A stretch of DNA of 45,189 bases from an uncultured Clostridia bacterium. GTDB lineage: Bacteria; Bacillota; Clostridia; Christensenellales; Borkfalkiaceae. Location of the stretch: assembly GCA_947625555.1 (NCBI GenBank), contig CANQOT010000013.1, forward strand, positions 1 through 45,189, given 5' to 3'. A model generated the notes under the pieces. It worked only from the letters and a program-made list of their open reading frames with translations, was not told the origin of the DNA and did no database searches. This document shows positions 14,387 to 44,822 of this stretch, piece by piece (within the stretch, counting starts at the first letter, position 1; every line of letters begins with the position of its first letter). The position numbers and the translations under genes were made by a program.

Positions 14387-14551
14387 GCAGTAAGGGGCGA
14401 GAACGCACGCTTATGGGCAGAGGACGGACAAAGGGCAGCCTTTGTTCGTTTTGGTATCTTCAAAAAACGCTTTCGCCCATGCTGCGGCGCGTGGGTGTAG
14501 GCAGTCTTGCACACGTGCGCGGATCATATCGGGGAATTGAGGAGGTCTCCT
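14387..14551 (+). ncRNA. Long structured 5' leader, possible cis-regulatory RNA
   Basis: Nested stems can be read off. The outer stem is 14403-14410 with 14489-14496 (one mismatch), the middle stem ATGGGC 14413-14418 with GCCCAT 14475-14480, and inside it an 11-bp hairpin 14424-14434 with 14439-14449 (one G-U pair, loop GCAG). A further small hairpin is possible around 14491-14515. The ribosome site GAGGAGG at 14539-14545 is followed by TCTCCT, which can pair back on it. I do not recognise a known riboswitch class. The folding is visible; regulation is inferred. Confidence 0.45.
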
Positions 14552-22799: not shown

Positions 22800-22828
22800 T
22801 TGACATTTTCCCATATTTATCCTATAAT
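22800..22828 (+). promoter_or_regulatory. Consensus promoter of tryptophanase
   Basis: TTGACA at 22800-22805, 17-nt spacer, TATAAT at 22823-22828: a full consensus sigma-A promoter. The transcript would start near 22835, only about 23 nt before the start codon, so there is no room for a TnaC-like leader peptide. Confidence 0.92.
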
Positions 22829-24243: not shown

Positions 24244-24278
24244 GCCGCCCCGCGCAATTTTGCGCGGGGCGGCGTTTC
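24244..24278 (+). terminator. Long GC hairpin after tryptophanase
   Basis: A perfect 14-nt inverted repeat (24244-24257 with 24260-24273) forms a very stable hairpin with AATT at its tip, 6 nt after the stop. The tail is only GTTTCCC, so termination may be incomplete; the hairpin would also protect the mRNA 3' end. Confidence 0.75.
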
Positions 24279-24364: not shown

Positions 24365-24393
24365 TTGACAAGGACGGCGTTTTGCATTATAAT
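24365..24393 (+). promoter_or_regulatory. Consensus promoter of the deo / nucleic-acid scavenging operon
   Basis: TTGACA at 24365-24370, 17-nt spacer, TATAAT at 24388-24393. The transcript starts near 24400. I see no clear palindromic operator and no DeoR or CytR gene in the window. Confidence 0.92.
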
Positions 24394-24419: not shown

Positions 24420-25079
24420 ATGGACGTTAAAGAAATTTTAAGCCGGTGCGATCACACACAGCTCTCGCCGACGGCTACGTGGGAGGATATCCGCGCGCTC
24501 ATCGACGACGGCATCAGGTACGGGACGGCGTCCGTCTGTATCCCGCCCTGTTTTGTATCCGAAGCAAAGTACTACGCCGGGGGCAGGCTTCCCATCTGCA
24601 CGGTGATCGGCTTCCCCAACGGCTATAACACGAAGGAGACGAAGGCCTACGAGGCGATGGCCGCCGTCACGGCGGGCGCCGACGAGATCGACATGGTCAT
24701 CAATCTCGGCGACGTGAAGGCGAAGCGGTTCGAGAAGATCCTCGACGAGATCGTCGCCGTCAAGGCCGCCTGCATGGGCAGGATCTTGAAGGTCATCATC
24801 GAGACCTGCCTTTTGAGCGACGAGGAGAAGGTCATCATGTGCCAGATCGTCACCGAGGCGAAGGCCGACTTCATCAAGACCTCCACGGGATTTTCCAAGG
24901 GGGGTGCAACGCGCGAGGACGTGGCGCTCTTCAAACGCCATGTCGGCCCCAACGTCAAGATCAAGGCCGCGGGCGGCATTGCCACGTTGAAGGACGCGGA
25001 GGACTTTATCGCCCTCGGCGCCGACCGTTTGGGCACTTCCCGCATCGTGAAAATCGTCAAGGAGGAACATCTTTTATGA
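24420..25079 (+). CDS. deoC: Deoxyribose-phosphate aldolase
   Basis: 219 residues, normal length. Splits 2-deoxy-D-ribose 5-phosphate into D-glyceraldehyde 3-phosphate and acetaldehyde, the last step of deoxynucleoside breakdown. Both catalytic lysines are present: Lys153 in FIKTSTGF (Schiff base) and Lys182 in VKIKAAGGI; the N-terminal DHTQLSP and the IDMVINLGD motif also match. The ATG at 24420 follows AAGGGGGG. It is the first gene after a consensus promoter and overlaps the next gene by ATGA, so deoC and deoD are coupled. Its product enters glycolysis, so the operon lets the cell use DNA sugar as carbon. Confidence 0.96.
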   Translation: MDVKEILSRCDHTQLSPTATWEDIRALIDDGIRYGTASVCIPPCFVSEAKYYAGGRLPICTVIGFPNGYNTKETKAYEAMAAVTAGADEIDMVINLGDVKAKRFEKILDEIVAVKAACMGRILKVIIETCLLSDEEKVIMCQIVTEAKADFIKTSTGFSKGGATREDVALFKRHVGPNVKIKAAGGIATLKDAEDFIALGADRLGTSRIVKIVKEEHLL

Positions 25080-25795
25080 GCGAACATAAAAACGTCCCCA
25101 CGCCGCACATCACGGCCAAGTACGGCGATTTTGCCGAGACGGTGCTCATGCCGGGCGATCCTCTCCGCGCAAAATTCATTGCCGAAAACTTCCTCGAAGA
25201 CCGCGTCCTCGTCAACAACGTGCGCGGGGTGCAGGGCTACACGGGAACATACCGCGGCAAGCGGGTATCCGTCATGGCCTCGGGCATGGGCCAGCCCTCC
25301 ATCGGGATCTATTCTTACGAACTTTTCAACTTCTACGGCGTGGAAAACATCATCCGCGTCGGGTCGTGCGGTTCCTTCGATAAGGATCTGCATGTGCGCG
25401 ATATCATCTTGGCGCAGGGCGCCTGCACCAACGGCAACTATGCCAAGCAGTACAACCTGCCCGGCACCTTCTGCCCGATCGCCGACTTCGGCCTCTTGCG
25501 CCGTGCGGCGGAGGAATGCGAGAAGGCGCACCTTCGCTACAAGGTGGGCAATATCTTCTCCTCGGATATGTTCTACGATGACGCAAACAGCGGCATGCAG
25601 TGGGCGAAGATGGGGGTCTTGGGCGTCGAAATGGAGAGCGCGGCCCTCTATTGCAACGCGGCGCGCGCAGGGAAGAAGGCCCTCTGCATCTGCACGGTGA
25701 GCGACAGTTTCCTTCATCCCGAAGAGAACACGACGGCCGAGGAGCGGCAAACCTCCTTCACGGCCATGATGAAGATCGCTTTGGAGCTTGCATAA
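25076..25795 (+). CDS. deoD: Purine-nucleoside phosphorylase, DeoD type
   Basis: 239 residues, the same length as E. coli DeoD. Phosphorolyses purine (deoxy)nucleosides to base and (deoxy)ribose 1-phosphate. Recognised by PTPHITAKYGDFAETVLMPG, the phosphate-binding RVGSCGSF, GVEMESAALY for ribose and base, and ICTVSDSF with catalytic Asp210. The start is the ATG that overlaps the deoC stop; GGAGGA at 25060-25065 within deoC serves as ribosome site. Upstream in-frame codons lie inside deoC and are excluded. Cytosolic; its product is the substrate of the phosphopentomutase encoded 2 nt further on. Confidence 0.96.
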   Translation: MSEHKNVPTPHITAKYGDFAETVLMPGDPLRAKFIAENFLEDRVLVNNVRGVQGYTGTYRGKRVSVMASGMGQPSIGIYSYELFNFYGVENIIRVGSCGSFDKDLHVRDIILAQGACTNGNYAKQYNLPGTFCPIADFGLLRRAAEECEKAHLRYKVGNIFSSDMFYDDANSGMQWAKMGVLGVEMESAALYCNAARAGKKALCICTVSDSFLHPEENTTAEERQTSFTAMMKIALELA

Positions 25796-25797
25796 CT

Positions 25798-26961
25798 ATG
25801 GCAAAGAGATGCTTTTTGATCGTCCTCGATAGTTTCGGCGTGGGGGAACTTCCCGACGCAAATCTGTGGCACGACGAGGGCTCGAACACCTTGGGCGCCA
25901 TTCGCGGCCACGCGAATTTCAACTGCCCGAATTTGAAAAATTTGGGGCTCTTCAACATCGACGGCGTGGGCGGCGGGGTACCCATGCCCGCGGCGAGCTA
26001 TGCGCGTATGCGCGAGAAGTCGATGGGCAAGGATACGACGATCGGCCATTGGGAGATCGCGGGCATCATCTCGCCCGAGCCCCTTCCCACCTTCCCGAAC
26101 GGCTTCCCCCCGGAGGTCGTCGAGGAATTTGAACGCCGCACGGGGCGCAAAGTCCTCTGCAACAAGCCCTATTCGGGCACCGAAGTCATCAAGGACTTTG
26201 GGGAGGAGCACCTGAAAACGGGCGCGCTCATCGTCTACACTTCGGCCGACAGCGTGTTCCAGATCGCCGCGCACGAGGACATGGTACCCCCCGAAGAGCT
26301 CTACCGCTACTGCGAGATCGCGCGCGGGATGTTGACGGGGCCCACCGGCGTGGGCAGGGTCATCGCCCGTCCGTTCACGGGGGAATATCCCTTCACCCGC
26401 ACGGCGAACAGGCACGATTTCTCCCTTACGCCGCCCAAAGATACCATGCTCGACCTCCTCAAAAAGGCGGGCTATGCGACATTATCCGTCGGCAAGATCT
26501 ACGATATCTTTGCGGGCAAGGGCGTCTCGGAGAGCCACCGCACCGTCTCCAATGCGAACGGCATGGAGGTGACGCTCGCCCTTCAAAAGGAGGACTTCGA
26601 GGGGCTTTGTTTCGTCAACCTCGTCGACTTCGATATGAAGTACGGCCACCGCAACGACGTCGCGGGCTATGCCGCCGCGGCGACGGAGTTCGACGCATTC
26701 CTCTCCGAATTTCTTCCCGCCATGCGGGAGGACGATATTTTGCTCATCACGGCCGACCACGGTTGCGATCCGTCGACGCCTTCGACCGACCATTCCCGCG
26801 AATACACGCCCATGCTCATCTATGGGAAGGGCATACAGGGCGGCGTGAATTTGGGCACCCGTCCCACGTTTGCGGATATTTCGGCGACGGTGCTCGACTT
26901 CTTCGGCGTGGATCAAGAGGGCACGGCCGGCGAGAGCTTTTTGGAGCAAGTCATCAAATGA
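25798..26961 (+). CDS. deoB: Phosphopentomutase
   Basis: 387 residues (the family is about 390-410). Converts (deoxy)ribose 1-phosphate to the 5-phosphate, linking the phosphorylases to DeoC. It is an alkaline-phosphatase-fold metalloenzyme: Asp11 in LIVLDSFGVGE, the phosphate-carrying Thr80 in KDTTIGHWE, and the metal-binding ITADHGCDPSTPSTDHSRE near the C-terminus are all present. Starts 2 nt after deoD; the ribosome site is a modest GGAG inside the end of deoD. Overlaps cdd by ATGA. Confidence 0.96.
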   Translation: MAKRCFLIVLDSFGVGELPDANLWHDEGSNTLGAIRGHANFNCPNLKNLGLFNIDGVGGGVPMPAASYARMREKSMGKDTTIGHWEIAGIISPEPLPTFPNGFPPEVVEEFERRTGRKVLCNKPYSGTEVIKDFGEEHLKTGALIVYTSADSVFQIAAHEDMVPPEELYRYCEIARGMLTGPTGVGRVIARPFTGEYPFTRTANRHDFSLTPPKDTMLDLLKKAGYATLSVGKIYDIFAGKGVSESHRTVSNANGMEVTLALQKEDFEGLCFVNLVDFDMKYGHRNDVAGYAAAATEFDAFLSEFLPAMREDDILLITADHGCDPSTPSTDHSREYTPMLIYGKGIQGGVNLGTRPTFADISATVLDFFGVDQEGTAGESFLEQVIK

Positions 26962-27362
26962 AGGATTGGAAATTTTTGATGGAGGCGGCGGAAGGCGCGC
27001 GCGAGATGGCCTATGTGCCCTATTCGCATTTCCGCGTCGGAGCGGCGCTCCTCACGAAGAGCGGCAAGATCTATGCGGGTTGCAATGTCGAGAACGCCTC
27101 TTACCCCGCGGGGATCTGCGCCGAACGCACGGCCGTCTCCAAGGCAGTCAGCGAGGGCGAGCGGGAGTTCGAAGCGCTCGCGATCGTCGGCGGCAAGGAG
27201 GGGGATTGGGCAAAATTTTGCGCCCCCTGCGGCATTTGCAGGCAGGTGATCGCCGAATTTTGCCCGCCCGACTTCAAGATCGTCTTGGGCAACAGCGCGA
27301 AGTTTGAAGTCTACACGCTCGGGCAGCTCCTGCCCCTCTCCTTCACGGGGAAAAACTTATAA
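26958..27362 (+). CDS. cdd: Cytidine deaminase
   Basis: 134 residues, the small homotetrameric type. Deaminates cytidine and deoxycytidine to (deoxy)uridine so that pyrimidine phosphorylase can act on them. The zinc site is complete: Cys54-Ala-Glu56 in GICAERTAV (Glu56 as proton shuttle) and Cys91 and Cys94 in APCGICRQ. NVENASYPAGICAER is the standard substrate-binding segment. Start overlaps the deoB stop by 4 nt. A dedicated deaminase inside a deo operon supports breakdown of mixed deoxynucleosides. Confidence 0.96.
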   Translation: MKDWKFLMEAAEGAREMAYVPYSHFRVGAALLTKSGKIYAGCNVENASYPAGICAERTAVSKAVSEGEREFEALAIVGGKEGDWAKFCAPCGICRQVIAEFCPPDFKIVLGNSAKFEVYTLGQLLPLSFTGKNL

Positions 27363-27367
27363 AACGG

Positions 27368-29053
27368 ATGAAAAATTCTCGGATCAGAATGTTATCTATT
27401 ACGGCCGCTCTCCTTCTTGCGTTCTGCCTCGGCGGATGCGGCGGGGGCGGGGAGCTTCCCAAGCTCGCAACGCCCGAAGTGAGCATCGCAGACGGCGGCG
27501 TCGCCGTTTGGGACGCGGTCGAGCACGCCATGTACTACGAGTACATCATCGGCAGCGAAGAGCCCGTCGCCATATCGGAGTGCAGTTTGCAGCTCGAAGA
27601 GGGCGACACCATCCGCGTCAAGGCGGTAAGCGGCGACGAAAACTTTGCCGACAGCGACTATTCTCCCGCCCTGACCTACCATAAGGGCGAGTATGTCGAC
27701 CTCTCCATCTATGCCGTCAACGATCTGCACGGCAAGTTCATGGATACGGGGACCCAGCCAGGCCTCGACGAATTTACCACCTACTATAAAAACCTGGTCG
27801 AAGATCCCGCCCGCGAAGAGATCCTCATCTCCTCGGGCGATATGTGGCAGGGTACGGCCGAATCCCTTCTCAACAAGGGGCAGCTCATGACCGAGTGGAT
27901 GAACGATATCGGCTTTTCTTCGATGACGCTCGGCAACCACGAATTTGATTGGGGCTCCGATGTTTTGACCCCCAACAGCGAGCTCGCCGAGTTCCCCTTC
28001 CTCGCCATCAACGTGCGCGAAAACGGCAAGATGCCCGACTACTGTCAGGGTTCGACCATTGTAGAGAGAGGGGGATTGAAGGTGGGCATCATCGGCGCCA
28101 TCGGCGATTGCCTCTCTTCCATTTCGAGCGAGTTCCGCGACGGCCTCTCCTTTATGACGGAGAGCACCCTCACCTCGCTCGTGAAGGGGGAAGCGACCCG
28201 TCTGCGCGAGGAAGAGGGGTGCGATCTCATCGTCTATTCCATTCACGACGGCGGCGAGGACGCCTCCTCGGGCATCACTTCCGTCAAAAACAGCGACATG
28301 GGCTGGTACGACAGTTCGCTCTCGAACGGCTATGTCGATCTTGTCTTTGAGGGGCATACCCACAAGAAATATACTTTACAGGACGAATACGGCGTCTACC
28401 ATTTGCAGGGCAGCAGCGAGAACCGCGATTTAAGCTGCGCCGATATCTCCTTCAATACCACGACGGGGGAATTTACCGTCACGCCCCGCCACATCGCCTC
28501 GGGGACCTATGCGAACAGTTCCCTCCAAGACGATCCCATCGTCGATACCCTCTACGGCAAATATTTCCCCGAACGCGACCTCTATTCGCCCATCGGCTCC
28601 TCGCGCACCACGCGCAACAGTACCGCCATTTTGAGCAAGGTCGCCGAGCTTTACTTTGAGAAGGGCGTCGAGGCATGGGGCAAGAATTATACGATCGTGT
28701 GCGGCGGGGGCTTCCTCAACGCGCGCAATCCCTACAATATCTATGCGGGCAACGTCTCCTATGCGGATATCGCGACCGTCCTGCCCTTCGATAACGAGAT
28801 CGTCCTCGGCAGTATCAGCGGGACCGACCTCGTCAAATTCTTAAACAAGCGCACCGCAACGAGCAATAAATACACCATCTATAAGAAGATCGAGCCCGCT
28901 GCCGTATCTGCGGGAGAGACCTATTATATCGTCGTGGATAGTTATACGTCGAGCTACCGTTCGAATAACATCAAAGAGATCGCGCGTCTCGGCAAGGGCA
29001 TCTATGCCCGTGACCTTCTCAAAGAGTTCATCGCCGAAGGGGGTTGGGCCTGA
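27368..29053 (+). CDS. 5'-nucleotidase / metallophosphoesterase lipoprotein (UshA family)
   Basis: 561 residues. Signal peptide with lipobox LGGC, Cys24 lipidated, so it acts on the outer face of the membrane. A short N-terminal beta domain precedes the calcineurin-type phosphoesterase domain with the metal ligands AVNDLHG, SSGDMWQG, GNHEFDWG, SIHDGG and EGHTH in order. The C-terminal 5'-nucleotidase domain (about 370-560) includes CGGGFLNARN and ATVLPFDNEI. In this family the substrates are nucleoside monophosphates and related compounds. Here it would dephosphorylate nucleotides released by the secreted nucleases so that nucleosides can be taken up. The ribosome site is weak; the start is set by the charged n-region of the signal peptide. 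Its stop overlaps the next start (TGATG). Confidence 0.92.
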   Translation: MKNSRIRMLSITAALLLAFCLGGCGGGGELPKLATPEVSIADGGVAVWDAVEHAMYYEYIIGSEEPVAISECSLQLEEGDTIRVKAVSGDENFADSDYSPALTYHKGEYVDLSIYAVNDLHGKFMDTGTQPGLDEFTTYYKNLVEDPAREEILISSGDMWQGTAESLLNKGQLMTEWMNDIGFSSMTLGNHEFDWGSDVLTPNSELAEFPFLAINVRENGKMPDYCQGSTIVERGGLKVGIIGAIGDCLSSISSEFRDGLSFMTESTLTSLVKGEATRLREEEGCDLIVYSIHDGGEDASSGITSVKNSDMGWYDSSLSNGYVDLVFEGHTHKKYTLQDEYGVYHLQGSSENRDLSCADISFNTTTGEFTVTPRHIASGTYANSSLQDDPIVDTLYGKYFPERDLYSPIGSSRTTRNSTAILSKVAELYFEKGVEAWGKNYTIVCGGGFLNARNPYNIYAGNVSYADIATVLPFDNEIVLGSISGTDLVKFLNKRTATSNKYTIYKKIEPAAVSAGETYYIVVDSYTSSYRSNNIKEIARLGKGIYARDLLKEFIAEGGWA

Positions 29054-30354
29054 TGAGGCTTTATGACATCATCAAAAAGAAGAGAGACGGGGGAGAGCTC
29101 ACGACCGAGGAGATCGACTTCTTCGTTCGCGGCGTGACGGACGGCTCCATTCCCGACTACCAGATCTCCGCGCTCTGCATGGCGATCTATTTTCGGGGCA
29201 TGAACGTGCGGGAGACTTCCGATCTCACCTTCGCCGTGCGCGATTCGGGCGAACGGCTGGATTTTTCCGCCATCAAAGGTATCCGCGCCGACAAGCATTC
29301 CACGGGCGGCGTGGGGGATAAGACCAGCCTCGTCGTGGGGCCCATCGTCGCCTCCCTCGGGGTGAAGGTCGCCAAGATGAGCGGCCGCGGCCTCGGGCAC
29401 ACGGGCGGCACCGTGGATAAGCTCGAAGCTATCCCGGGCCTTAAAACGACGCTCGCCGAAGGGGATTTTATCAGACAGGTCAACGACATCGGCATCGCCA
29501 TCATCGGGCAATCCCGCGAGTTCGCGCCCGCGGATAAAAAGCTCTACGCGCTGCGCGACGTGACGGCCACGGTGGACAGCATGCCCCTCATTGCCGCGAG
29601 CATCATGGGCAAGAAGCTCGCCGCCGACGACGATTGCATCGTGCTCGACGTAAAGACGGGAAGCGGGTCCTTTATGAAGAGCGTGGAAAGAAGCCGCGAC
29701 CTCGCCCGCCTCATGGTGGACATCGGAAAGCGCGCGGGGAAGAAGATGGTCGCCCTCATCACGGATATGGACGTGCCGCTCGGCTACGCGATCGGCAACT
29801 CTCTGGAAGTCATCGAAGCCGTCGAAACGCTCAAAGGGAGGGGCCCCGAAGATCTCACCGAAGTGTGCCTCACCCTCGCCGCCCATATGCTCTCTCTCGC
29901 GGGCATGGGTACCCCCGAAGAGGCGAAAATGCTCGCCAAGCGGGCGCTTTCGGACGGGAGCGCGTTGAAAAAACTCCAAGAAATGGTCGCGCGGCAGGGG
30001 GGAGATTCCGCTTGCATCGACGATACGAATAAATTCGCCAAGGCGCAGTATGTCTACGCCGTGAAGAGCGAAAAAGCGGGCTACATCACCCGCGTGGATA
30101 CCGAGGCATACGGGCTTGCGAGCCTCGCCCTCGGCGCGGGACGCAATACGGCGGAGGATACGATCGACTATTCCGCGGGCGTCATTTTGCAGAAAAAGAC
30201 GGGCGACTATGTGGAGAAGGGCGAAACGCTCGCAACGCTCTATTCGAACGACGAGAAGAAGTTCGAGACCGCGGAGCGTATTTTGCTCGCCGCGACCTCG
30301 TTCGGCCCTACCATGCCCGAAAAGACCCCGCTTATTTACGATATCGTGGAATAA
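29053..30354 (+). CDS. pdp: Pyrimidine-nucleoside phosphorylase
   Basis: 433 residues. Cleaves thymidine, deoxyuridine and uridine with phosphate to base and (deoxy)ribose 1-phosphate. Diagnostic segments are KHSTGGVGDKTSLVVGP and KMSGRGLGHTGGTVDKLE, typical of the Gram-positive pyrimidine phosphorylase/thymidine phosphorylase family, plus KTGSGSFM. The ATG at 29053 shares its A with the preceding TGA stop; a TTG at 29044 is in frame but less likely. With cdd it covers all pyrimidine deoxynucleosides, and with deoD all four bases. Confidence 0.95.
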   Translation: MRLYDIIKKKRDGGELTTEEIDFFVRGVTDGSIPDYQISALCMAIYFRGMNVRETSDLTFAVRDSGERLDFSAIKGIRADKHSTGGVGDKTSLVVGPIVASLGVKVAKMSGRGLGHTGGTVDKLEAIPGLKTTLAEGDFIRQVNDIGIAIIGQSREFAPADKKLYALRDVTATVDSMPLIAASIMGKKLAADDDCIVLDVKTGSGSFMKSVERSRDLARLMVDIGKRAGKKMVALITDMDVPLGYAIGNSLEVIEAVETLKGRGPEDLTEVCLTLAAHMLSLAGMGTPEEAKMLAKRALSDGSALKKLQEMVARQGGDSACIDDTNKFAKAQYVYAVKSEKAGYITRVDTEAYGLASLALGAGRNTAEDTIDYSAGVILQKKTGDYVEKGETLATLYSNDEKKFETAERILLAATSFGPTMPEKTPLIYDIVE

Positions 30355-30358
30355 GATC

Positions 30359-30385
30359 GGCTCCTGCGGAGCCACGGAATGATGA
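30359..30385 (-). repeat. Dispersed repeat, inverted partial copy of the CATTCCG family
   Basis: GGCTCC-TGC-GGAGCC hairpin followed by ACGGAATGATG. Read on the minus strand it matches the CATTCCG plus GGCTCCGCAGGAGCC repeat at 41494-41520. It starts right after the pdp stop. Confidence 0.6.
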
Positions 30386-30431
30386 AACGAATAAGAGGAC
30401 ACGAAAGTTAAGGCGCAAAAGATATTTTCCT

Positions 30432-30469
30432 CACGGAATTTTGTTTTGCTCGCCAAAACAAAATTCGTG
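30432..30469. repeat. AT-rich palindrome between pdp and tdk
   Basis: Arms 30432-30448 and 30454-30469 are reverse complements apart from one bulged G, around a CTCGC loop (centre TTTTG-CTCGC-CAAAA). The stem is about 16 bp. It ends 11 nt before the tdk start codon, where a ribosome site would be expected and none is seen. It could be a mobile palindrome or an mRNA structure controlling tdk. Confidence 0.75.
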
Positions 30470-30480
30470 AACTGACTACT

Positions 30481-31059
30481 ATGGCGAAACTCTACTTCAA
30501 ATTCGGCGCAATGGGGTGCTCCAAGACGGCACAGGCGCTCATCACCAAGTTCAACTACGAAGAGCGCAACATGAAGGTGCTCCTTCTGAAGCCCGCCGTC
30601 GACACGCGCGACGGGGCGACCGTCGTCAGATCCCGCATCGGGCTCAAACAGGACGCTATCGCCGTCAGATCTGACGAGGACCTCTACGCTCTCTACGAGA
30701 ATAAGTATTCGGATTCGGACGTCGTCATCGTCGATGAGTGCCAATTTCTCACGCCCGAGCAGGTGGATCAGCTCGCCGACATCGTGATGAAGAAGAATAT
30801 CCCCGTGCTGTGTTTCGGCCTCTCGACCGATTTCACGACGCACCTCTTCCCGGGCTCCAAGCGGCTCTTCGAGATCGCCGAATCTATCAGCGAGATCAAG
30901 TCGGTATGCAGCTGCGGGGCGAAGGCGACGGTCAACGCCCGCCTCGACGAAAACGGGAAGATCGTCACCGAGGGTTCGCAAGTTCTCCTCGGCGGGAACG
31001 ACAGATATGTTGCAATGTGCAGGAAATGCTGGCTCAAATATCGCGCGGAGCAGGCATAG
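30481..31059 (+). CDS. tdk: Thymidine kinase (type II)
   Basis: 192 residues, normal length for the bacterial tetrameric type. Phosphorylates thymidine with ATP to dTMP. Visible are the P-loop region FGAMGCSKTAQAL (residues 8-20), the Walker B-like DVVIVDECQFL and the lasso/zinc part with CSCGAKATVNAR and CRKCW. The P-loop reads CSK where many homologues have SGK, a variant also remembered from other Clostridia. No Shine-Dalgarno is seen within 15 nt; an AGAGGA lies about 90 nt upstream, beyond the palindrome at 30432-30469. In this operon it gives thymidine a salvage route besides degradation. Confidence 0.93.
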   Translation: MAKLYFKFGAMGCSKTAQALITKFNYEERNMKVLLLKPAVDTRDGATVVRSRIGLKQDAIAVRSDEDLYALYENKYSDSDVVIVDECQFLTPEQVDQLADIVMKKNIPVLCFGLSTDFTTHLFPGSKRLFEIAESISEIKSVCSCGAKATVNARLDENGKIVTEGSQVLLGGNDRYVAMCRKCWLKYRAEQA

Positions 31060-31068
31060 GAGGCAGAT

Positions 31069-33387
31069 ATGAACATCGGAAGGAAGTCGCTATCATTTGT
31101 CCTTGCGGCGGCGCTCATCTTCGGCGTCGCCATGGTGGGCACGGCTACGGCCGCAGTCGTCTACACGGACGCGGCGGAGGGGAGCTATTACAGTTCCATC
31201 ACCGCCACGGGCGGAACAGCGCTCTTGGGGCAGGTGCACGACCTTATCGTAAGTACGCATACGAAATATACTTCGTATGATGAATGCAAGACGAAAGGTA
31301 CGACGACCGACCCCGGTCTCGACGGAAAGGGATATCTCGAGTTTTACACGCACGAGACGCTCACGAGTTTCGGCGGCAGCGTCGGGACTGCGAACCGCGA
31401 ACATGTCTGGTGTCAGAGCCTGTCCAACGGGCTTTGGGGGACGAGCGGCGCGGGTAGCGACATGCACCATATCCGCCCTTCGGAATCCTCTCTGAACAGC
31501 ACGCGCGGAAACAATAAATACGGCAAAGTTACGTCGGGGAAGAAAGAGGCGTATTCAAAGAAATCGGGCGGGGCGCAATCCAAGCTCGGCGGCTATGTCG
31601 GCGGCGGCGTGTTCGAGCCCCTCGACAACGTCAAGGGCGATGCGGCCCGCATCGTCATGTATGTATATACCCATTATAATAAGGGGAAAAACGTCGGCGG
31701 CACGCTCGACAGCAGGGGCAGCGGGACGCTGAATTTCACCAACGTCATGGCCGCAAGCAGCGAGGCGGCGGCAAGAGAACTTCTTCTCGAATGGAACGCG
31801 CTCGATCCCGTCGATGCGATCGAAGAAAAGCGCAACGAAGAGGTCTTCAAGATCCAAGGCAACCGCAATCCCTTTATCGATCATCCCGAATATGCGTCGG
31901 CGATCTGGGGGGACGGCAAATACGATCCGCCCGTCTCCGACGTCAAGCCCACATCGCTCTCGATCACGCCTTCCGCGGTAACCATGTCCGTGGGCGGCAC
32001 CGCAAATTTGACTGTAACGCCGACTCCCTCCAATGCCTCGAAGGAGGTCAAGTGGTCGGTCTATCCCACAAACGTCGTCACGATCGTGGACGGAAAGCTG
32101 ACGGCGTATGCAGAGGGACAGGCGACCGTCACGGCGACGAGCACGCTCGACCAAAACGTCAAGGCGACGGCGAGCGTCACAGTCAAGAAGGCAGAGGGCG
32201 GCGGCAGCGCTGCGGGCTCCTTCATCATTGACAGAAGCAGCGTCGATACGGGCGGGAGCAATTACGCCTTCCACGATTGGTCGGCGGGAAGCGTAAAGGG
32301 GATCGCCTACATTTACACGGGCAACAAGGACGCCATGCAGTTCAACAGCAGCAAAGACAGTTATTATATTGCAAGCACGACCGCTGCGCTCGGCCCCATT
32401 ACCAAAGTCACCGTCAAGGGGCAGGAGGATAAGGATGAAAAGAGTTGGAAGCTCCTCACATCCTCCACGCCCTACGGGGAGGTCGCAAAAAAGCCCGCAA
32501 ACGGCAACGACCGCGGCACGAAGACGGTTACGGAGAACGGCGTCACATGGGAAGTGACGGGAAGCGATACTTACTTTGCCCTCACCTACGAGGATTCGAG
32601 CGCCGCCTACCTTAATAGCATCACGGTGGAATACGGCCCCTCGCAGGGCGAGACCCCGCCCCCGCACGTGCACCATTTCGAATATGAGAACGTCGGCGAC
32701 AAAGACGATCACATCACCACCTGCACGGGTTGCGATTACGGCGAGATCGAGCCCCACGTTTACAGCAGTGATACGGATACCACCTGCGATCTTTGCGGAT
32801 ATGTTCGCACCGTCCATACGCACGAATATCAATACACCCCCTTGGACGACACCTATCACACCGTCACCTGCAAGGATTGCGATAAGTTGAACGATAGGGA
32901 AGTCCACGTATATAGCGACAGTACGGATACGACCTGTAACAAGTGCGGCTACGAGCGCACGCTCGGCGGCGAACATGTCCACACCAAACAATATGAAGAT
33001 ATAGACGACACCTACCACCGCGTCACCTGCGATTGCGGCATTGACGAACGCGAAGCGCACGAATATACGGACGATGCCGATCCGACCTGCAACCTCTGCG
33101 GCCATGTGCGCGCCATCGTCGACGAGGAGAAGCTCGCCGCCTTCCATACCGCCGTCGAAGGGGTCAAGACGGAGGGCGCGCTCTCCGCAAGGCGGCAGTC
33201 CCTTTTGGCGGCGCTCAACGCCTATAACGCCCTCTCCGATGACGAAAAGGAGGCCGCCGCAGACGACTATGCGGCGCTCTCTGCCGCGGTCGAGGCGTAT
33301 GACGCCGACGTAGAAGCCATGAACGAGGCGGCGCAAGAGGCGAACGACCTCTTCGCGCCCAAGAAGAAGGGGGAGAAAAACGCATGA
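31069..33387 (+). CDS. Secreted EndA/endonuclease I family nuclease with Ig-like and Cys-rich modules
   Basis: 772 residues, AGGAGG at 31058-31063. Signal peptide 1-28. Residues about 30-290 are an endonuclease I (EndA/NucM) domain: NREHVWCQS with catalytic His112, then GSDMHHIRPSESSLNSTRGN and FEPLDNVKGDAARI. A BIG2-type Ig domain follows (about 293-371), then a beta-rich region (about 383-525), then three or four modules with paired CXXC and histidines (about 534-683, TCDLCGY, TCNKCGY, TCNLCGH) and a short helical tail. Wall-associated or secreted; it would cut extracellular DNA or RNA to small pieces. No lipobox, sortase signal or C-terminal helix is seen, so anchoring is unclear. Last enzyme of the scavenging operon, overlapping the next gene by ATGA. 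Confidence 0.9.
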   Translation: MNIGRKSLSFVLAAALIFGVAMVGTATAAVVYTDAAEGSYYSSITATGGTALLGQVHDLIVSTHTKYTSYDECKTKGTTTDPGLDGKGYLEFYTHETLTSFGGSVGTANREHVWCQSLSNGLWGTSGAGSDMHHIRPSESSLNSTRGNNKYGKVTSGKKEAYSKKSGGAQSKLGGYVGGGVFEPLDNVKGDAARIVMYVYTHYNKGKNVGGTLDSRGSGTLNFTNVMAASSEAAARELLLEWNALDPVDAIEEKRNEEVFKIQGNRNPFIDHPEYASAIWGDGKYDPPVSDVKPTSLSITPSAVTMSVGGTANLTVTPTPSNASKEVKWSVYPTNVVTIVDGKLTAYAEGQATVTATSTLDQNVKATASVTVKKAEGGGSAAGSFIIDRSSVDTGGSNYAFHDWSAGSVKGIAYIYTGNKDAMQFNSSKDSYYIASTTAALGPITKVTVKGQEDKDEKSWKLLTSSTPYGEVAKKPANGNDRGTKTVTENGVTWEVTGSDTYFALTYEDSSAAYLNSITVEYGPSQGETPPPHVHHFEYENVGDKDDHITTCTGCDYGEIEPHVYSSDTDTTCDLCGYVRTVHTHEYQYTPLDDTYHTVTCKDCDKLNDREVHVYSDSTDTTCNKCGYERTLGGEHVHTKQYEDIDDTYHRVTCDCGIDEREAHEYTDDADPTCNLCGHVRAIVDEEKLAAFHTAVEGVKTEGALSARRQSLLAALNAYNALSDDEKEAAADDYAALSAAVEAYDADVEAMNEAAQEANDLFAPKKKGEKNA

Positions 33388-33971
33388 AAAAGAAAATTTT
33401 CGCGGGTCTTGCCGTTGTCGCGGTAGCTTGCTGCGGCCTCGCGGGCTGTTCTCTCACGCCCGATTCGACCGAGGACGGCTATGAGTTCCTCAACGAGATG
33501 TTGAAGGTCTCCTATTCCCGGATCGTCCTCACCGTCGAAAACGACTTCGGCGAGGATAAGCTCACGAGCGTCTACACGATGGTCTATGGCGAGGACGCCG
33601 TCACGGTCTCGTATAGCGTCGAGCGGTTCGCCCCGCTCTCTTCCGCCGTCGGCCCCATCGAAACCAAGACGGGCATGATCGAGATCGCGGGGGGCGAAGT
33701 GACCGTCACCGAAGGGGACGATATCGGCCTTACCGCCGCCGTCGCCGCGCTCCCGTTCGACTTCCGCGCGGAGTATTTCGAAAATGCCGACCTCGGCGGC
33801 AACTTCTTCTATGCCGACGTCAAGGATAGTGCGGGCTTTTTGGGCGAGCAGGTCGCATGCACGGAGATGAAGATTCAGGCGAACTTCGGCGAGGTGTTCT
33901 CGTCCATAGCAGTCAGATACGCGGCCTCTTCAGGGGAAGAGGTACGCGCCGCCTATTCCTTTACAAAATAA
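33384..33971 (+). CDS. Small lipoprotein of unknown function
   Basis: 195 residues. Signal peptide with lipobox LAGC, Cys22 lipidated. The mature part is beta-rich (VYTMVYGEDAVTVSYSV, MIEIAGGEVTVTEGDD, YAASSGEEVRAAYSF), without a recognised family. Start overlaps the nuclease stop by 4 nt, so it is made in step with that enzyme and may hold it at the cell surface or aid secretion. This is inference from coupling only. Confidence 0.75.
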   Translation: MKKKIFAGLAVVAVACCGLAGCSLTPDSTEDGYEFLNEMLKVSYSRIVLTVENDFGEDKLTSVYTMVYGEDAVTVSYSVERFAPLSSAVGPIETKTGMIEIAGGEVTVTEGDDIGLTAAVAALPFDFRAEYFENADLGGNFFYADVKDSAGFLGEQVACTEMKIQANFGEVFSSIAVRYAASSGEEVRAAYSFTK

Positions 33972-34018: not shown

Positions 34019-34047
34019 TTGCTTTATTCTGTGAAGTTTGTTATAAT
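34019..34047 (+). promoter_or_regulatory. Promoter of the RDD-ABC importer operon
   Basis: TTGCTT at 34019-34024, 17-nt spacer, TATAAT at 34042-34047 with an extended TGT before the -10. The transcript starts near 34054. No terminator is visible between the preceding stop (33971) and this promoter, so read-through from the deo operon is possible. Confidence 0.75.
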
Positions 34048-34066: not shown

Positions 34067-34987
34067 ATGTTTGAACTGCGGAAAATCGGCTTTGTGAGAA
34101 GAGCTTCGGCGTTCCTCTTGGACGTGATCCTCCTCGCCGTGCTTACGACAGGCTTCATGTACCTCATTTCCCTTATCGCCGGATTCAGCCATCAGGAAGC
34201 CCTTGCGAACGAATACTATACCGCATGGGAGGATTATCGCAAGGAATACATGGGCGACATCGCTCCCTTCTATGGCTTTGAATATACGGAAGACGAGGAC
34301 GGCGGATATACTCTTACAAATAAAGAAGATGAAAAGGCCGCCGAGATCATCGAAGTGATCGAGGCAATGACGGATGATAAACCCTCCGAAGAGGAGGGCG
34401 ACGATCCCAAACTCGTTGCGGCATACAAGGCTTATCTCGAGCTTGCGAACGGCGTAAAGGACGAAAATGGCAACGTCGTCAAGAAGGCGATCCCCGCAGC
34501 GCTGGTAGATGCGCAGTACAGGTATGTGTACAGTCTCATCTTCATGATGCTCTCCATAGGGCTGCTGCTCGCCTATCTCGTCCTCGAATTCATCCTCCCC
34601 TTGATCCTCAAAAACGGACAGACGGTGGGAAAGAAAGTCTTTTCTATCGGGCTTGTCCGTCCCAACTGTGTAAAAATCACCAATTTGGCGCTCTTTGCGA
34701 GGACGATGGTCGGTAAATTCGCCTTCGAAACGATGTTCCCCGTCTTGCTCATCTTTATGTTCTTCTTTGGGGGGCTCGGGATCCTTGCAATCATTCTCCT
34801 TGCCGCACTGCTTCTTTTGAATATCATCCTGTTCTTTGCGACGAAGAACAGAACGCCCATCCACGACCTGCTCGCAGGCACCGTCGCGGTGGATCTGAAG
34901 CTCCAGATGATCTACTATTCGGAAGACGAGCTCAACGAGGCCAAGTCGCTCCTCCATGCGGAGGCAGTCGAAAACTCGAAGAGCTAA
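34067..34987 (+). CDS. RDD family membrane protein
   Basis: 306 residues. The RDD signature is clear: RRASAFLLDVILL at the start, GQTVGKKVFSIGLVRP in the middle and PIHDLLAGTVAVDL at the end. Three to four membrane helices (about 15-38, 150-178, 222-268). An acidic external loop of about 100 residues (40-145) between the first two helices is longer than in most RDD proteins. GAGG at 34054-34057 serves as ribosome site. Function of the family is not settled; it is first in line with an ABC importer 38 nt downstream without a terminator between, so co-expression is likely. Confidence 0.85.
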   Translation: MFELRKIGFVRRASAFLLDVILLAVLTTGFMYLISLIAGFSHQEALANEYYTAWEDYRKEYMGDIAPFYGFEYTEDEDGGYTLTNKEDEKAAEIIEVIEAMTDDKPSEEEGDDPKLVAAYKAYLELANGVKDENGNVVKKAIPAALVDAQYRYVYSLIFMMLSIGLLLAYLVLEFILPLILKNGQTVGKKVFSIGLVRPNCVKITNLALFARTMVGKFAFETMFPVLLIFMFFFGGLGILAIILLAALLLLNIILFFATKNRTPIHDLLAGTVAVDLKLQMIYYSEDELNEAKSLLHAEAVENSKS

Positions 34988-35025
34988 CGATAGCACGACA
35001 CAAAAAACACGATAAGGAAGAAGCT

Positions 35026-36498
35026 ATGAAAGTCGTATTGCAAAACCTCACCAAGATCTTCCCGAGCCGCAACAAGAAGGAAAAAAACGGCGAAGTCATC
35101 GCCGTCAACGACTTCAATCTCGAGATCCCCGACGGCAAGCTCATCGGCCTTTTGGGTCCCTCGGGATGCGGCAAGAGCACCACGCTGTATATGATCAGCG
35201 GGTTGCAGACGCCGACGCGAGGTAAGATCTTCTTCGGCGACGACGACGTCACCAAACTTGCCCCGGAAAACAGAGGCATCGGCCTTGTTTTCCAAAACTA
35301 TGCGCTATACCCGCATATGACGGTACAACAGAATATTCTATTCCCTTTGCAGAATCTGAAAGGTAATCAGAGGCTCTCCAAGGAAGAAATGCTCAAGCGT
35401 GCCAACGAGGTCGCGAAGCTCGTCCAGATCGACGAGTACATGCAGCGCAAACCCGCCGAACTTTCGGGCGGTCAGCAGCAACGCGTCGCCATCGCCCGTG
35501 CACTCGTCAAAATGCCCCGCGTTCTTCTTCTGGATGAGCCTCTTTCCAATCTCGACGCCCGTCTCCGCTTGCAGACGCGCGAGGAGATCAGAAGGATCCA
35601 GCGCGATACGGGAATTACGACCATCTTCGTCACGCACGACCAGGAGGAGGCGATGTCCATCTCCGACTATATCGTCGTCATGAAGCTCGGCGTCATCATG
35701 CAGACGGGCAAACCCCAGTGGGTGTACGACGATCCCGCCAACCTCTTCGTGGCGAAATTCCTCGGCGCGCCTCCCATCAACCTCTTCACGGGCAGAGTGG
35801 AGGGCGGCAAGCTCTTCATCGGCGAGGAGGACGTTTTGGACGTCGGGGACGTCGAGGATCAGGAAGTATATGTCGGCGTCCGTCCCGAGGGATTCCTCCT
35901 CACGGGGGAGGGCAGGCTCACCTGCTCCGTCTCGGGCGTGGACGTCATGGGCAGAGACGTCTCCGTCGTCTCCACGAATGCAAATTCGCTGAATGCGCTC
36001 GTTCGCGCCATTATAGCTTCCGACGATGCGGGCAAGATCGACGGCGACACCGTTAAATTCAACTTAAAACCGCATAAGGTGCTCATCTTTAATAAGGAGA
36101 CGGAAAAGCGCGTCTACTTCGGCGGGCAGATCGCCTCGCACGAGGCCATGCTCCAAAAGATGAAGGAAGAGGGGCAGGACTATGTGACCCACACGGGTCC
36201 CCTTCCCCGCGAGGCGGACGACAAACCCAAGGAAAAGAAGGAACTGCCCAAGACGAAGATGCAGGTCGTCGGGGGATTCTTCAAAAATTCCTTTAACAAG
36301 GTCAAGGGCCTCTTCAAAAAGAAGGGGACCGCGGAGGAAACTCCGGCAGAGAGCGACGAGGGCGGTGCCGCCGGAGCGCCTTCGGACGAGCCCGGGGACG
36401 AGACCCCGCGCGAAGAAGCGGCAACCGTCGAAACGAAGGAAGAGGCACCCATGCCCGAGACAGAGAGCTCGGAGAACACGTCCGATAGCGAGGTCTGA
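35026..36498 (+). CDS. Carbohydrate-type ABC importer ATPase (MalK/UgpC/MsmK family) with long acidic tail
   Basis: 490 residues, AAGGAAG at 35014-35020. Walker A GPSGCGKST, Q-loop LVFQNYALYPHM, signature LSGGQQQR, Walker B VLLLDEPLSNLDARLR and H-loop FVTHDQEEAM are complete; a regulatory TOBE-like beta domain (about 245-370) includes GVRPEGF. The usual length is about 360-380 residues. Here roughly 95-100 extra residues follow, first lysine-rich (KNSFNKVKGLFKKK), then an acidic Glu/Pro/Ala stretch that looks disordered. The partner permease begins with a similar low-complexity segment. It energises the importer encoded by the next three genes; the family often serves several importers. Confidence 0.95.
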   Translation: MKVVLQNLTKIFPSRNKKEKNGEVIAVNDFNLEIPDGKLIGLLGPSGCGKSTTLYMISGLQTPTRGKIFFGDDDVTKLAPENRGIGLVFQNYALYPHMTVQQNILFPLQNLKGNQRLSKEEMLKRANEVAKLVQIDEYMQRKPAELSGGQQQRVAIARALVKMPRVLLLDEPLSNLDARLRLQTREEIRRIQRDTGITTIFVTHDQEEAMSISDYIVVMKLGVIMQTGKPQWVYDDPANLFVAKFLGAPPINLFTGRVEGGKLFIGEEDVLDVGDVEDQEVYVGVRPEGFLLTGEGRLTCSVSGVDVMGRDVSVVSTNANSLNALVRAIIASDDAGKIDGDTVKFNLKPHKVLIFNKETEKRVYFGGQIASHEAMLQKMKEEGQDYVTHTGPLPREADDKPKEKKELPKTKMQVVGGFFKNSFNKVKGLFKKKGTAEETPAESDEGGAAGAPSDEPGDETPREEAATVETKEEAPMPETESSENTSDSEV

Positions 36499-36500
36499 AC

Positions 36501-37616
36501 ATGGATGAAGAAAAGACAACTTTGACCGAACAGATCTTGGCCGAAGAGGGCGCTCCCGCAGAGGCGGAGGTTTTGGCCAAAGGGGAGGACGTCCTTGCCG
36601 AGACGCCCGAAGAGGGGAAGCCCAAAAAGAAAAAGAAGGGCGGCAAGTGGCAGTCCAAGAACCAATGGAAGGCGTGGCTCTATCTTTTGCCCGCGCTCGC
36701 CATTTTGGCCGTCTTTACCGTTTGGCCCATCATCAACACGGTGCGTATGTCGATGCTCTATCGTGTCGACGCCGAGGGCAACGTCATCGGCTATCACAAT
36801 CTCGACGCAATGCGCGGATTCAAATACCAATTCGGGTTTGCGAACTTTGCCAGCGCCGTCCATTATAGCGGATTTTTGAACGCCTTGGGGAATACGATGC
36901 TCCTCACCGTGATCACGGTGCCCATCTCCACGATGCTCGCTCTCCTCATTGCGGTAGCGCTCAACTCCATCAAGCCTTTGAAGAAGGTGTACCAAACAGT
37001 CTTTTTCCTCCCCTATGTGACGAACTCCATCGCGATCGGTATGGTATTCATGGCGATGTTCCATATGGTCGGCATCGATCTTTCCAATCCGCAGTCGGTG
37101 GGGATCATCAACTCCATCATCAAGGCATTCGGCGGGAAACCCATCAACTGGGTCGATATGGGTTCGACGAAGGTCGCCAACATGGTAGTCCTCATCTTGT
37201 TCATCGTCTGGAACGCGTTGCCCTTCAAAATTTTGGTGCTCCTCGGCGGGCTCCAAAATGTCGATAAGCAGTATTACGATGCCGCCAAAGTGGACGGAGC
37301 ATCGCGTTTCCGCGTATTCTGGCGCGTGACCGTGCCCCTTCTCTCCCCGATGATCGCCTACGTCGTCATCACGGGCTTTATCGGCGGGTTCAAGGAGTAC
37401 ACGAGCGTCGTGGGTATCTTCGGCGATGCCATGGGCCCTACCGGCGGCGCACACCGTCTGGACACCATGGTCGGGTTTATTTACGATAACATCAACGGAA
37501 AGACGGAACTTTCCACACAGGGACGCGCAAGCGCAGCGGCGCTGATTTTGTTTGCGATCATTTTTGCCGTAACGATGATCAATTTCTATGTCAGCAAGAA
37601 GAAGGTCCATTATTAA
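36501..37616 (+). CDS. ABC importer permease, MalF/UgpA type
   Basis: 371 residues; the start lies 2 nt after the ATPase stop, with GAGG at 36490-36493. Residues 1-56 are an acidic then lysine-rich cytoplasmic extension (KPKKKKKGGKW). Six membrane helices follow, the first WLYLLPALAILAVFTVWPII. The EAA loop YYDAAKVDGASRFRVFWRV (ATPase contact) is at about residues 256-274. One half of the membrane channel of a carbohydrate-type (CUT1-like) importer. The substrate cannot be read from the permease. Confidence 0.94.
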   Translation: MDEEKTTLTEQILAEEGAPAEAEVLAKGEDVLAETPEEGKPKKKKKGGKWQSKNQWKAWLYLLPALAILAVFTVWPIINTVRMSMLYRVDAEGNVIGYHNLDAMRGFKYQFGFANFASAVHYSGFLNALGNTMLLTVITVPISTMLALLIAVALNSIKPLKKVYQTVFFLPYVTNSIAIGMVFMAMFHMVGIDLSNPQSVGIINSIIKAFGGKPINWVDMGSTKVANMVVLILFIVWNALPFKILVLLGGLQNVDKQYYDAAKVDGASRFRVFWRVTVPLLSPMIAYVVITGFIGGFKEYTSVVGIFGDAMGPTGGAHRLDTMVGFIYDNINGKTELSTQGRASAAALILFAIIFAVTMINFYVSKKKVHY

Positions 37617-37629
37617 GGAGGGGGGAGAT

Positions 37630-38607
37630 ATGGCAAATCAAATTTTGGCAAGCGCCTCCGTGGGCAAGCCCGCTATCATCGTTGCGGCCGTTCTCGCGGT
37701 CTTGATCCTCGGCATGGTCGTCACATGCGTTGTCCTCGTATGCCGGCGTAGCGCCGATTCGCGGCGCAAGACGAAGAAGTTCCTCGTAAAGGCCGCGCTC
37801 TATGCGTTCCTCACCGTCATGGCGGTCATCGTCCTGTTCCCGTTCTACTGGATGCTCATCTCGTCGGTCAAGACGCTCAATGAGTACAATCAGGCGGAAC
37901 CCACCCTTTGGCCCCAGCAATTCCAGTGGTCCAATTATGCCTTGGCGTTCACGGGCAATCTCAATCTCGGCAGACTGTTCCTGAACACAGTCATCGTCGG
38001 CGTCGTATCCACCCTTCTCTCCCTCGTCATCACGGTTCTTTCGGCCTATGCGTTCGCAAGGTTGGAATTCAAGGGGAAGAATATCCTCTTCGCGGCGCTT
38101 CTCGCGACGATGATGATCCCCGGGGAACTCTTCACAGTCACCAACTACATCACCGTGAGCGATCTCGGTTGGCTTCGCAGCTATTCGGTGCTCATCGTGC
38201 CCTTCCTCGTGAGCGTGTTCTACATCTACCTTCTCAGGCAGAACTTCATGCAGATCCCCAACGAGCTCTATCTCGCCGCCAAGGTAGACGGGACGAGCGA
38301 CCTCAAATATCTCTGGCGGGTGATGATCCCGCTCGCCTCGCCCACCCTCATCTCCATCACCATTTTGAAGATGATGGGCGCATGGAACTCCTATGTATGG
38401 CCCAACCTTGTCGCGAACGATCTTCCCCACAGGTTGATCACAGTCGGTTTGCGCGGGGCGGCCTTCAAGGACACGCTGACAGGGCTCACAAATTATCCCG
38501 CGCAGATGGCGGCCGTCGTGCTCGTCACGATCCCGCTGCTCATCGTGTTCCTGTTCTTCCGCAAATACATCATGCGCGGCGTCTCGCGGAGCGGTATCAA
38601 GGGGTAA
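37630..38607 (+). CDS. ABC importer permease, MalG/UgpE type
   Basis: 325 residues from the ATG at 37630, set by AAGGAGGGGGGAG at 37615-37627; the longer in-frame form from 37588 overlaps the previous gene. The EAA loop NELYLAAKVDGTSDLKYLWR is intact. An extra hydrophobic segment (about 13-36, IIVAAVLAVLILGMVVTCVVLV) stands before the usual first helix LYAFLTVMAVIVLFPFYWML, so seven rather than six helices are predicted, and the N-terminus would be external. Pairs with the MalF-type permease. Confidence 0.94.
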   Translation: MANQILASASVGKPAIIVAAVLAVLILGMVVTCVVLVCRRSADSRRKTKKFLVKAALYAFLTVMAVIVLFPFYWMLISSVKTLNEYNQAEPTLWPQQFQWSNYALAFTGNLNLGRLFLNTVIVGVVSTLLSLVITVLSAYAFARLEFKGKNILFAALLATMMIPGELFTVTNYITVSDLGWLRSYSVLIVPFLVSVFYIYLLRQNFMQIPNELYLAAKVDGTSDLKYLWRVMIPLASPTLISITILKMMGAWNSYVWPNLVANDLPHRLITVGLRGAAFKDTLTGLTNYPAQMAAVVLVTIPLLIVFLFFRKYIMRGVSRSGIKG

Positions 38608-38664
38608 AACGTAAGTCCCATTTCAACTTAAAAACCAAATAAAATTTATATAAAGGAGAACAGA

Positions 38665-40080: not shown

Positions 40081-40090
40081 GGAGTAATTT

Positions 40091-44821: not shown

Positions 44822-44822
44822 T

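Follow-up and report, generated by a model that had tools for sequence, protein, structure and literature searches.

A candidate nucleic-acid utilisation locus of two adjoining gene runs in an uncultured Clostridia bacterium

Why a deo operon should enclose genes for a secreted nuclease and a surface nucleotidase, and by what route the products of such enzymes would enter the cell, are the questions raised by contig CANQOT010000013.1 (assembly GCA_947625555.1) of an uncultured Clostridia bacterium of the family Borkfalkiaceae, whose 45,189 nucleotides, read on the forward strand, are here called the window. A preliminary description of positions 24420 to 33971 had seen in nine genes a chain from DNA to glyceraldehyde 3-phosphate that was covered except for uptake. 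The enzymes of that chain are borne out, but the gap probably is not: an ABC (ATP-binding cassette) importer cassette adjoins the run at 34067-41488, and from 34067 onwards this importer, together with an SNase-type nuclease of its own, is probably the uptake step. We propose, with a probability of about 70 %, that the deo-nuclease run and the importer both serve nucleic-acid products and thus make up a nucleic-acid utilisation locus of two adjoining units.

Gene content of the two runs

The features concerned are listed below by window position; enzyme activities throughout are assigned by family membership, and bit scores are given with the cut-offs of the respective profiles.

24365..24393, + strand: sigma-70-type promoter TTGACA-17-TATAAT upstream of deoC, 12/12 consensus match
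24420..25079, + strand: deoC, deoxyribose-phosphate aldolase (TIGR00126, 236.8 bits, cut-off 117.3)
25076..25795, + strand: deoD, purine-nucleoside phosphorylase (TIGR00107, 294.6 bits, cut-off 232)
25798..26961, + strand: deoB, phosphopentomutase (TIGR01696, 460 bits, cut-off 341)
26958..27362, + strand: cdd, cytidine deaminase (TIGR01354, 150.9 bits, cut-off 113.7)
27368..29053, + strand: lipoprotein of the UshA/ecto-5'-nucleotidase kind (PF00149 and PF02872 above cut-off; lipobox by eye)
29053..30354, + strand: pdp, pyrimidine-nucleoside phosphorylase (TIGR02644, 579 bits, cut-off 409)
30355..30480, no strand: 126-base spacer between pdp and tdk with an inverted repeat (by eye), pieces of it repeated at three other genome sites
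30481..31059, + strand: tdk, thymidine kinase (NF003300, 239.7 bits, cut-off 195)
31069..33387, + strand: EndA-type nuclease (Endonuclease_1, PF04231, 122 bits, cut-off 25) with a Big_2 domain (PF02368) and a long tail
33384..33971, + strand: small lipoprotein matching no family in Pfam and NCBIfam profile scans
34067..34987, + strand: RDD-family membrane protein (PF06271), first gene of the cassette, present in 69 of the 80 named loci described below
35026..36498, + strand: ABC importer ATPase, MalK/UgpC type (PF00005; best NCBIfam model UgpC, below cut-off)
36501..37616, + strand: ABC importer permease 1, UgpA/MalF-like (PF00528)
37588..38607, + strand: ABC importer permease 2, UgpE/MalG-like (PF00528; the true start may lie downstream of the one listed)
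38665..40080, + strand: importer binding lipoprotein (PF13416), whose closest solved relative is a dinucleotide-binding protein of the 7c0f group
40091..41488, + strand: SNase-type nuclease lipoprotein (PF00565, 34.4 bits, cut-off 21; lipobox by eye)
41791..44760, + strand: large lipoprotein with Ig-like and weak OB-fold matches (PF20578 and PF01336, both below cut-off)

All nine genes of the first run, whose content and order are read directly off the sequence, stand on the + strand where the preliminary description had placed them, eight as members of the families it named and the ninth without a family. The overlaps and very short gaps it reported are confirmed by the coordinates (in order from deoC to the small lipoprotein, -4, +2, -4, +5, -1, +126, +9 and -4 bases), apart from the 126 bases before tdk. 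The EndA-type protein carries a signal peptide, read by eye, and falls so far short of the NCBIfam equivalog for deoxyribonuclease I (NF011716, 27.1 bits against a cut-off of 372) that it is to be regarded as a member of the Endonuclease_1 family and not as that equivalog; Endonuclease_NS (PF01223), considered as the nuclease family, has no member in the genome by profile search. Likewise, the nearest solved chains of the 5'-nucleotidase are those of UshA (1ush etc.), and the UshA equivalog NF007109 is not reached (114.6 bits, cut-off 600).

The adjoining importer has the features of a CUT1 system, namely a MalK/UgpC-type ATPase, two BPD_transp_1 permeases and a binding protein of the SBP_bac fold, and the Bmp-type nucleoside-binding family (PF02608) has no member in the genome. 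In its SNase, residues D67, D69, T70, R93, E101 and R145, which presumably play the roles of the corresponding positions in S. aureus nuclease, are invariant among nine aligned sequences, our own included, with D98 being either D or N. The large lipoprotein begins 302 bases after the SNase gene; its structure model is of low confidence (pLDDT 65), and profile scans found no nuclease domain in it or in its relatives.

Conservation and linkage to nucleic-acid enzymes

If the two runs serve one purpose, their parts should keep company in other genomes, and counts over 121 family genomes, sampled from a larger group, are consistent with this. Taking as strong a DeoC match of at least 136 bits, a nucleotidase match with E <1e-70 and a binding-protein match with E <1e-50, we found EndA in 19 genomes, a strong nucleotidase in 18, SNase (PF00565) in 16, a strong binding protein in 19 and strong DeoC in 61 (88 if every match at E 0.001 is counted). 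Of the 19 EndA genomes, 18 have the strong nucleotidase, 16 have SNase and all have strong DeoC, whereas among the 102 others these counts are 0, 0 and 42; the Fisher tests count related genomes as independent, so that their p-values overstate the association. The SNase gene adjoins the binding-protein gene in all 16 SNase genomes; in G066, tblastn shows an SNase that the profile missed. Conversely, 21 of the 42 deoC genomes outside the EndA set contain a Bmp-type nucleoside-binding protein but just 1 of the 19 within it does, as if the transport cassette replaced the Bmp family. At a locus of genome G045 (contig C16, L084), a nucleotidase gene and one for a Bmp-type nucleoside-binding protein are separated by some 3 kb (12294-13172 and 16195-17565).

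The order from deoC through SNase recurs in G117, G064, G066, G084 and G099, with the small lipoprotein undetected in the last; nuclease and nucleotidase thus stand near the deo genes in five further genomes, and the union of outside enzymes with a full deo set, which the preliminary description had singled out, is both kept in relatives and mirrored by co-occurrence across the family. EndA and deoC share a contig and lie near each other in G000 and the same five genomes; contig ends cut the locus in G009 and G047 in a manner compatible with the same arrangement (no nucleotidase was found in G047), and in G042 the locus is split, deoC-deoD-deoB-cdd standing apart from nucleotidase-pdp-tdk-EndA-ABC-SNase. 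EndA-deo linkage is confined to a single genus and two outliers. In genus g1, 7 of 13 sampled genomes possess DeoC, EndA and nucleotidase while none of the three occurs in strong form in the remaining six, a pattern suggestive of joint gain or joint loss, though one of the six, G092, keeps the binding protein. In a DeoC-DeoD-DeoB tree of 31 rows, G064 (g8; L038/L110) and G047 (g17; L036/L096/L114) fall inside the g1 clade, pointing to horizontal transfer of the locus or to wrong genus labels. The linkage also bears on whether the nucleases act in removing matrix, in escaping DNA traps or in toxicity rather than in feeding. Surface nucleases of mycoplasmas do have such roles (PMC12115388, PMC9740415), yet the present nuclease co-occurs with the catabolic run and sits inside it, and we consider a non-feeding role very improbable.

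On a wider scale, a scan of a genome contig collection based on A1, a 15-row alignment of the binding protein, gave 574 pattern matches and from these 540 binding-protein relatives; the counts that follow concern the best 80 of the 540 (the named loci), which are biased toward our own type. Most of their titles name uncultured Clostridia, Oscillospiraceae or Lachnospiraceae, and among the sample names are roe deer, cattle, sheep and goat as well as Lapin (the French word for rabbit); for some no host is given. SNase is found in 79 loci, the ATPase in 74, EndA in 22, and pdp and tdk in 19 each; the sole locus without SNase, L165, is on a contig that ends 136 bases after the binding-protein match, and in the other 79, as in our own, SNase follows the binding-protein gene. 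Less constant are the nucleotidase (14/80) and the large lipoprotein (45/80), which drop to 5/80 and 24/80 under a stricter setting. After EndA, the family-less small lipoprotein (33384-33971) keeps its position in several relatives, and it is present in 13 of the 80 loci.

The neighbourhood of the cassette is rich in further nucleic-acid enzymes, even though only 56 of the 80 loci extend at least 3 kb past SNase. NrnA-like proteins occur in 33 loci, often two in tandem, a count based on one NrnA query; an independent clustering of neighbours, with greedy choice of the longest open reading frame (ORF) and antisense ORFs included, yields 31. In family scans of representatives, these DHH proteins match NF053633 with 204 bits, below the cut-off of 350, whereas the SurE neighbours (29/80) match TIGR00087 above its cut-off. 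There are in addition dGTPase-like HD proteins (14/80), a PHP protein near RNase RNM (9/80) and a 5'-3' exonuclease (5/80), as well as one FAD oxidoreductase without a nucleic-acid role. An NT5C-type deoxyribonucleotidase fused to a guanylate-kinase domain, seen at 18792-19910 of L118, is encoded near the SNase cassette in 11/80 loci. Within the family, a similar neighbour module lies near the cassette in G117, G064, G030 and G095.

These linkages also test whether an ordinary deo operon merely happens to stand next to an unrelated sugar transporter, with the nucleases hitchhiking. Indeed, the best NCBIfam models for the ABC parts, none of which reaches its cut-off, bear names of sugar or glycerol phosphate types, and nuclease-free deo operons are common in the family: these carry deoC, deoD, deoB, cdd, pdp and often tdk in one run, as here, and the loci fetched from g3, g13 and g16 lack both the nucleotidase between cdd and pdp and the EndA gene that ours possesses. 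Nevertheless, the constant adjacency of SNase and binding protein, in the family and in the named loci alike, and the recurrent nucleic-acid neighbours make a chance neighbourhood highly implausible, as does the cassette's presence beside deo in three layouts: besides the one described above, a second has the cassette divergent from deo (G080, G114, G095) and a third occurs in L137, L155, L156, L167 and L192, so that the transporter appears to keep company with deo in different arrangements. Upstream of the locus, a tryptophanase-type gene (tnaA, 22861-24237) directly precedes the run and matches nothing in the related loci L035-L195 that were searched; since the deo-EndA order recurs where this neighbour does not, the arrangement seems to be more than chance.

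As for expression, the consensus promoter ends 26 bases before deoC and is likewise perfect in 8 of nine genomes compared, our own included, with none in the stretch read from G047; no shared operator was seen by eye in the last 110 bases upstream of deoC in the nine. A single transcript up to 33971 is plausible. An extended -10 element, TGTTATAAT, read by eye at 34039-34047 upstream of the RDD gene, makes two transcripts likelier than one, and we infer that 24420-33971 and 34067-41488 are likely transcribed separately. In 20 of 21 hand-picked related loci the pdp and tdk matches stand 4-58 bases apart, and in one 119, so the 126-base spacer looks lineage-specific. Among the flanking features, a second perfect consensus promoter lies about 1.6 kb away at 22800-22828, before the tryptophanase-type gene, which is followed on its 3' side by a 14-pair hairpin (24244-24273, by eye), and a giant surface-type ORF of 2732 amino acids with many Listeria-Bacteroides repeat domains (PF09479, PF18998) occupies 14507-22705.

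Cargo of the importer and purpose of the locus

What, then, would the importer carry? The structure model of the binding protein (pLDDT 89) finds as its 25 best fold matches UpG-bound chains of a dinucleotide-binding protein only (PDB titles: ABC transporter, uridylyl-3'-5'-phospho-guanosine), followed by UgpB chains and sugar binders. Sequence comparison gives the same order, with 2.6e-25 for the wild type of the 7c0f group versus 6.8e-23 for the best UgpB chain in a profile search and 3.8e-15 versus 6.8e-11 in a single-chain search, at about 20 % identity to the 7c0f group. Residues named in the titles of mutant structures were placed through alignments to 7c0f-group chains, whose numbers are the title numbers + 2: Y56, F79, N81, S127, T240 and Q274 correspond to our Y88, Y111, D113, S184, S305 and Q343, six of the eight residues so named, all invariant or nearly so in A1. 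In U3G, GPC and G3P binders, but not in glucose binders, two Tyr and two Ser hold the phosphate (PMC12718374); our protein keeps Y88, Y384 and S184, and the second Ser is probably one of the S305-S306 pair, as mapped via the 7c0f alignment only. By this comparison the kept positions tentatively favour a phosphate-bearing ligand, for which a dinucleotide is the best single guess. As to the imported form, we infer short oligonucleotides and not only nucleosides because of the UpG-bound closest relative, the SNase linkage and the NrnA and SurE neighbours.

The importer might instead carry nucleosides or bases that the 5'-nucleotidase would generate outside the cell; the nucleic-acid theme would then stay intact. 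A surface 5'-nucleotidase in the same run fits such a cargo, as does precedent: an ABC permease of glycerol type (GtsA operon) affects nucleoside uptake in M. bovis (PMC12838404), and Wasmund et al. interpret the transporters of Izemoplasma as likely to carry nucleosides or nucleobases (PMC8289736). Set against this are the dinucleotide held by the closest solved binder, with phosphate-ester binders coming next, the apparent retention of phosphate-holding Tyr and Ser positions (compare PMC12718374), and the linked NrnA and SurE of relatives, which by family act on oligonucleotides and nucleotides. We therefore regard a nucleoside or base cargo as unlikely.

Together, these data lead us to propose the following scheme for nucleic-acid use. 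Outside the cell, secreted EndA and the SNase lipoprotein would cut DNA, and probably RNA, into short oligonucleotides and nucleotides, from part of which the surface 5'-nucleotidase would remove phosphate. The UgpC/UgpA/UgpE-type (CUT1) importer and its binding lipoprotein would then take in phosphodiester-linked pieces, most likely dinucleotides, and perhaps mononucleotides or nucleosides as well. Inside, the pieces would be cut to nucleotides and nucleosides, a step for which relatives have NrnA- and SurE-type enzymes that are not seen linked here; Cdd would deaminate, DeoD and Pdp would release the base and (deoxy)ribose 1-phosphate, DeoB would isomerise the latter, and DeoC would split deoxyribose 5-phosphate into glyceraldehyde 3-phosphate and acetaldehyde, with bases and thymidine (through Tdk) also available for salvage. 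The deo enzymes also serve ribonucleosides. Growth on DNA as a carbon source, as first suggested for this run, is one reading of the union of nuclease and deo genes, whether such DNA would come from neighbours, host or diet, but it is not the only one, since RNA use and purine salvage fit as well; SNase-type enzymes of mycoplasmas, for one, also accept RNA (PMC12115388).

Purine salvage, in particular, is a serious candidate for a second purpose of the locus. PurH has no match in our genome, which is 99 % complete, and went undetected in 10 of the 19 EndA genomes (our own among them, and G045 being only 61 % complete) as against 18 of the 102 others; its absence from our genome suggests a purine need, in which case salvage may matter as much as carbon. 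That the whole is a salvage locus of a purine-requiring bacterium, with deoxyribose catabolism a by-product, comes close to an even bet and is compatible with the other explanations; tdk within the run agrees with it, whereas 9 of the 19 EndA genomes keep PurH, the purine evidence consists of this one gene, and the operon contains both deoB and a leading deoC. Salvage alone requires neither deoC nor deoB.

It is important to note that several observations weigh against a common nucleic-acid purpose or against dinucleotide import, in addition to the bias of the named loci toward our own type. UgpB-type proteins rank just below the dinucleotide binder by sequence as well as by fold, the fold is common to CUT1 binding proteins at large, and the residue mapping draws on the 7c0f group; of the two remaining mutant-title residues, Y246 falls on a variable A1 column and Y224 has no certain placement. 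The surface nucleotidase would itself yield nucleosides, which argues for nucleoside cargo. The PF00565 score of the SNase is modest, and a search with the single chain found no solved SNase. In 10 of the 19 EndA genomes EndA lies elsewhere (on another contig in nine, some 196 kb away in G057) and the parts are thus apart; the binding protein occurs in G092 and G068 in the absence of any EndA or SNase match; and weaker nucleotidase-type matches occur in genomes without EndA (e.g., G025, 90 bits). Finally, one G117 NrnA protein used as a query found a single distant match (25 %) in our genome, where SurE was not searched for, and the contig stops in a repeat 429 bases past the last gene, so that an NrnA/SurE-type neighbour module may be absent or unassembled. 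That repeat, a 128-base tandem repeat of C- and G-rich units at 44822-45189, probably broke the assembly; an NrnA gene had been predicted at another contig end of the genome and was not found there.

With these points in mind, we offer a wider generalisation tentatively and at slightly less than even odds: many gut Clostridia may have a dedicated CUT1-type importer of dinucleotides or short oligonucleotides tied to a surface SNase, often with tandem NrnA and SurE, which here would be joined, together with an extra secreted nuclease and a nucleotidase, to a deo operon leading from polymer to glycolysis.

Relation to known systems

For the question of how anaerobes of the gut live on DNA and RNA, the locus offers a concrete candidate that can be tested. 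The association with genes for nuclease, nanoRNase and nucleotidase and with deo genes provides a genetic argument for the cargo of a transporter type that is otherwise closest in name to importers of sugar or glycerol phosphate. The binding protein partially matches, below cut-off, NF045826 (P68 family surface lipoprotein), a family that we take to be of mycoplasma origin. A search of titles and beginnings of abstracts in the open-access literature found no description of an SNase-ABC cassette in gut Clostridia, and the parts of the literature examined hold no account of the deo, EndA and nucleotidase union, of wide SNase linkage in gut Clostridia or of the dinucleotide-import argument. The joining of outside enzymes to the deo set, called unusual in the preliminary description, accordingly stands as such for the full union in gut Clostridia, while for the general arrangement there is a precedent in M. 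bovis.

Among solved structures, the closest protein is the dinucleotide (U3G)-binding protein of Thermus thermophilus (PMC12718374; 7c0f group, CUT1/UgpB clade), the best match to our binding protein in both sequence and structure; unlike it, ours is a lipoprotein, with a ligand predicted from the comparison. Extracellular nucleases, phosphohydrolases and ABC transporters also share one locus in the DNA-degradation loci of Ca. Izemoplasma and of strains zrk13 and zrk29 (PMC8289736, PMC8397711, PMC10470597), where, unlike in ours, phosphate transporters occur along with a large lamin-tail nuclease protein, with no deo genes named in the material consulted (PMC8289736).

The nearest system overall is the nuclease-ABC "nucleotide transporter operon" of mycoplasmas (MAG_5030-5070, MBOVPG45_0307-0311 and the Mhp379 operon), in which, as here, the gene for an SNase lipoprotein stands beside those for ATPase, permeases and binding lipoprotein (PMC3585158). 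Mycoplasma SNase genes adjoin ABC transporter genes, in M. agalactiae with co-transcription in one case (PMC3585158), and reviews repeat this nuclease-ABC reading (PMC12115388, PMC9740415). In M. bovis, deoC (0300) and pdp (0301) lie within about 15 kb of the ABC, nuclease and MslA-homologue genes (0307-0311), on one strand at ~336-351 kb, much like the deo proximity seen here; MslA is proposed to hand oligonucleotides to the nuclease, with nucleotides entering via the ABC transporter (PMC4045577), and two neighbouring NrnA-type enzymes have nanoRNase activity (PMC7373297). In the M. hominis group SNase lies upstream of the ABC genes (PMC3585158), whereas in our locus it comes last, after the binding-protein gene; our cassette is further set apart by a leading RDD gene and by the full deo set, EndA and 5'-nucleotidase that precede it, the likeness being one of gene content. 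The mycoplasma and Izemoplasma precedents thus make this a kind of system already known, and dinucleotide import, if true, would also reveal the cargo of the nuclease-linked "sugar" ABC transporters of mycoplasmas.

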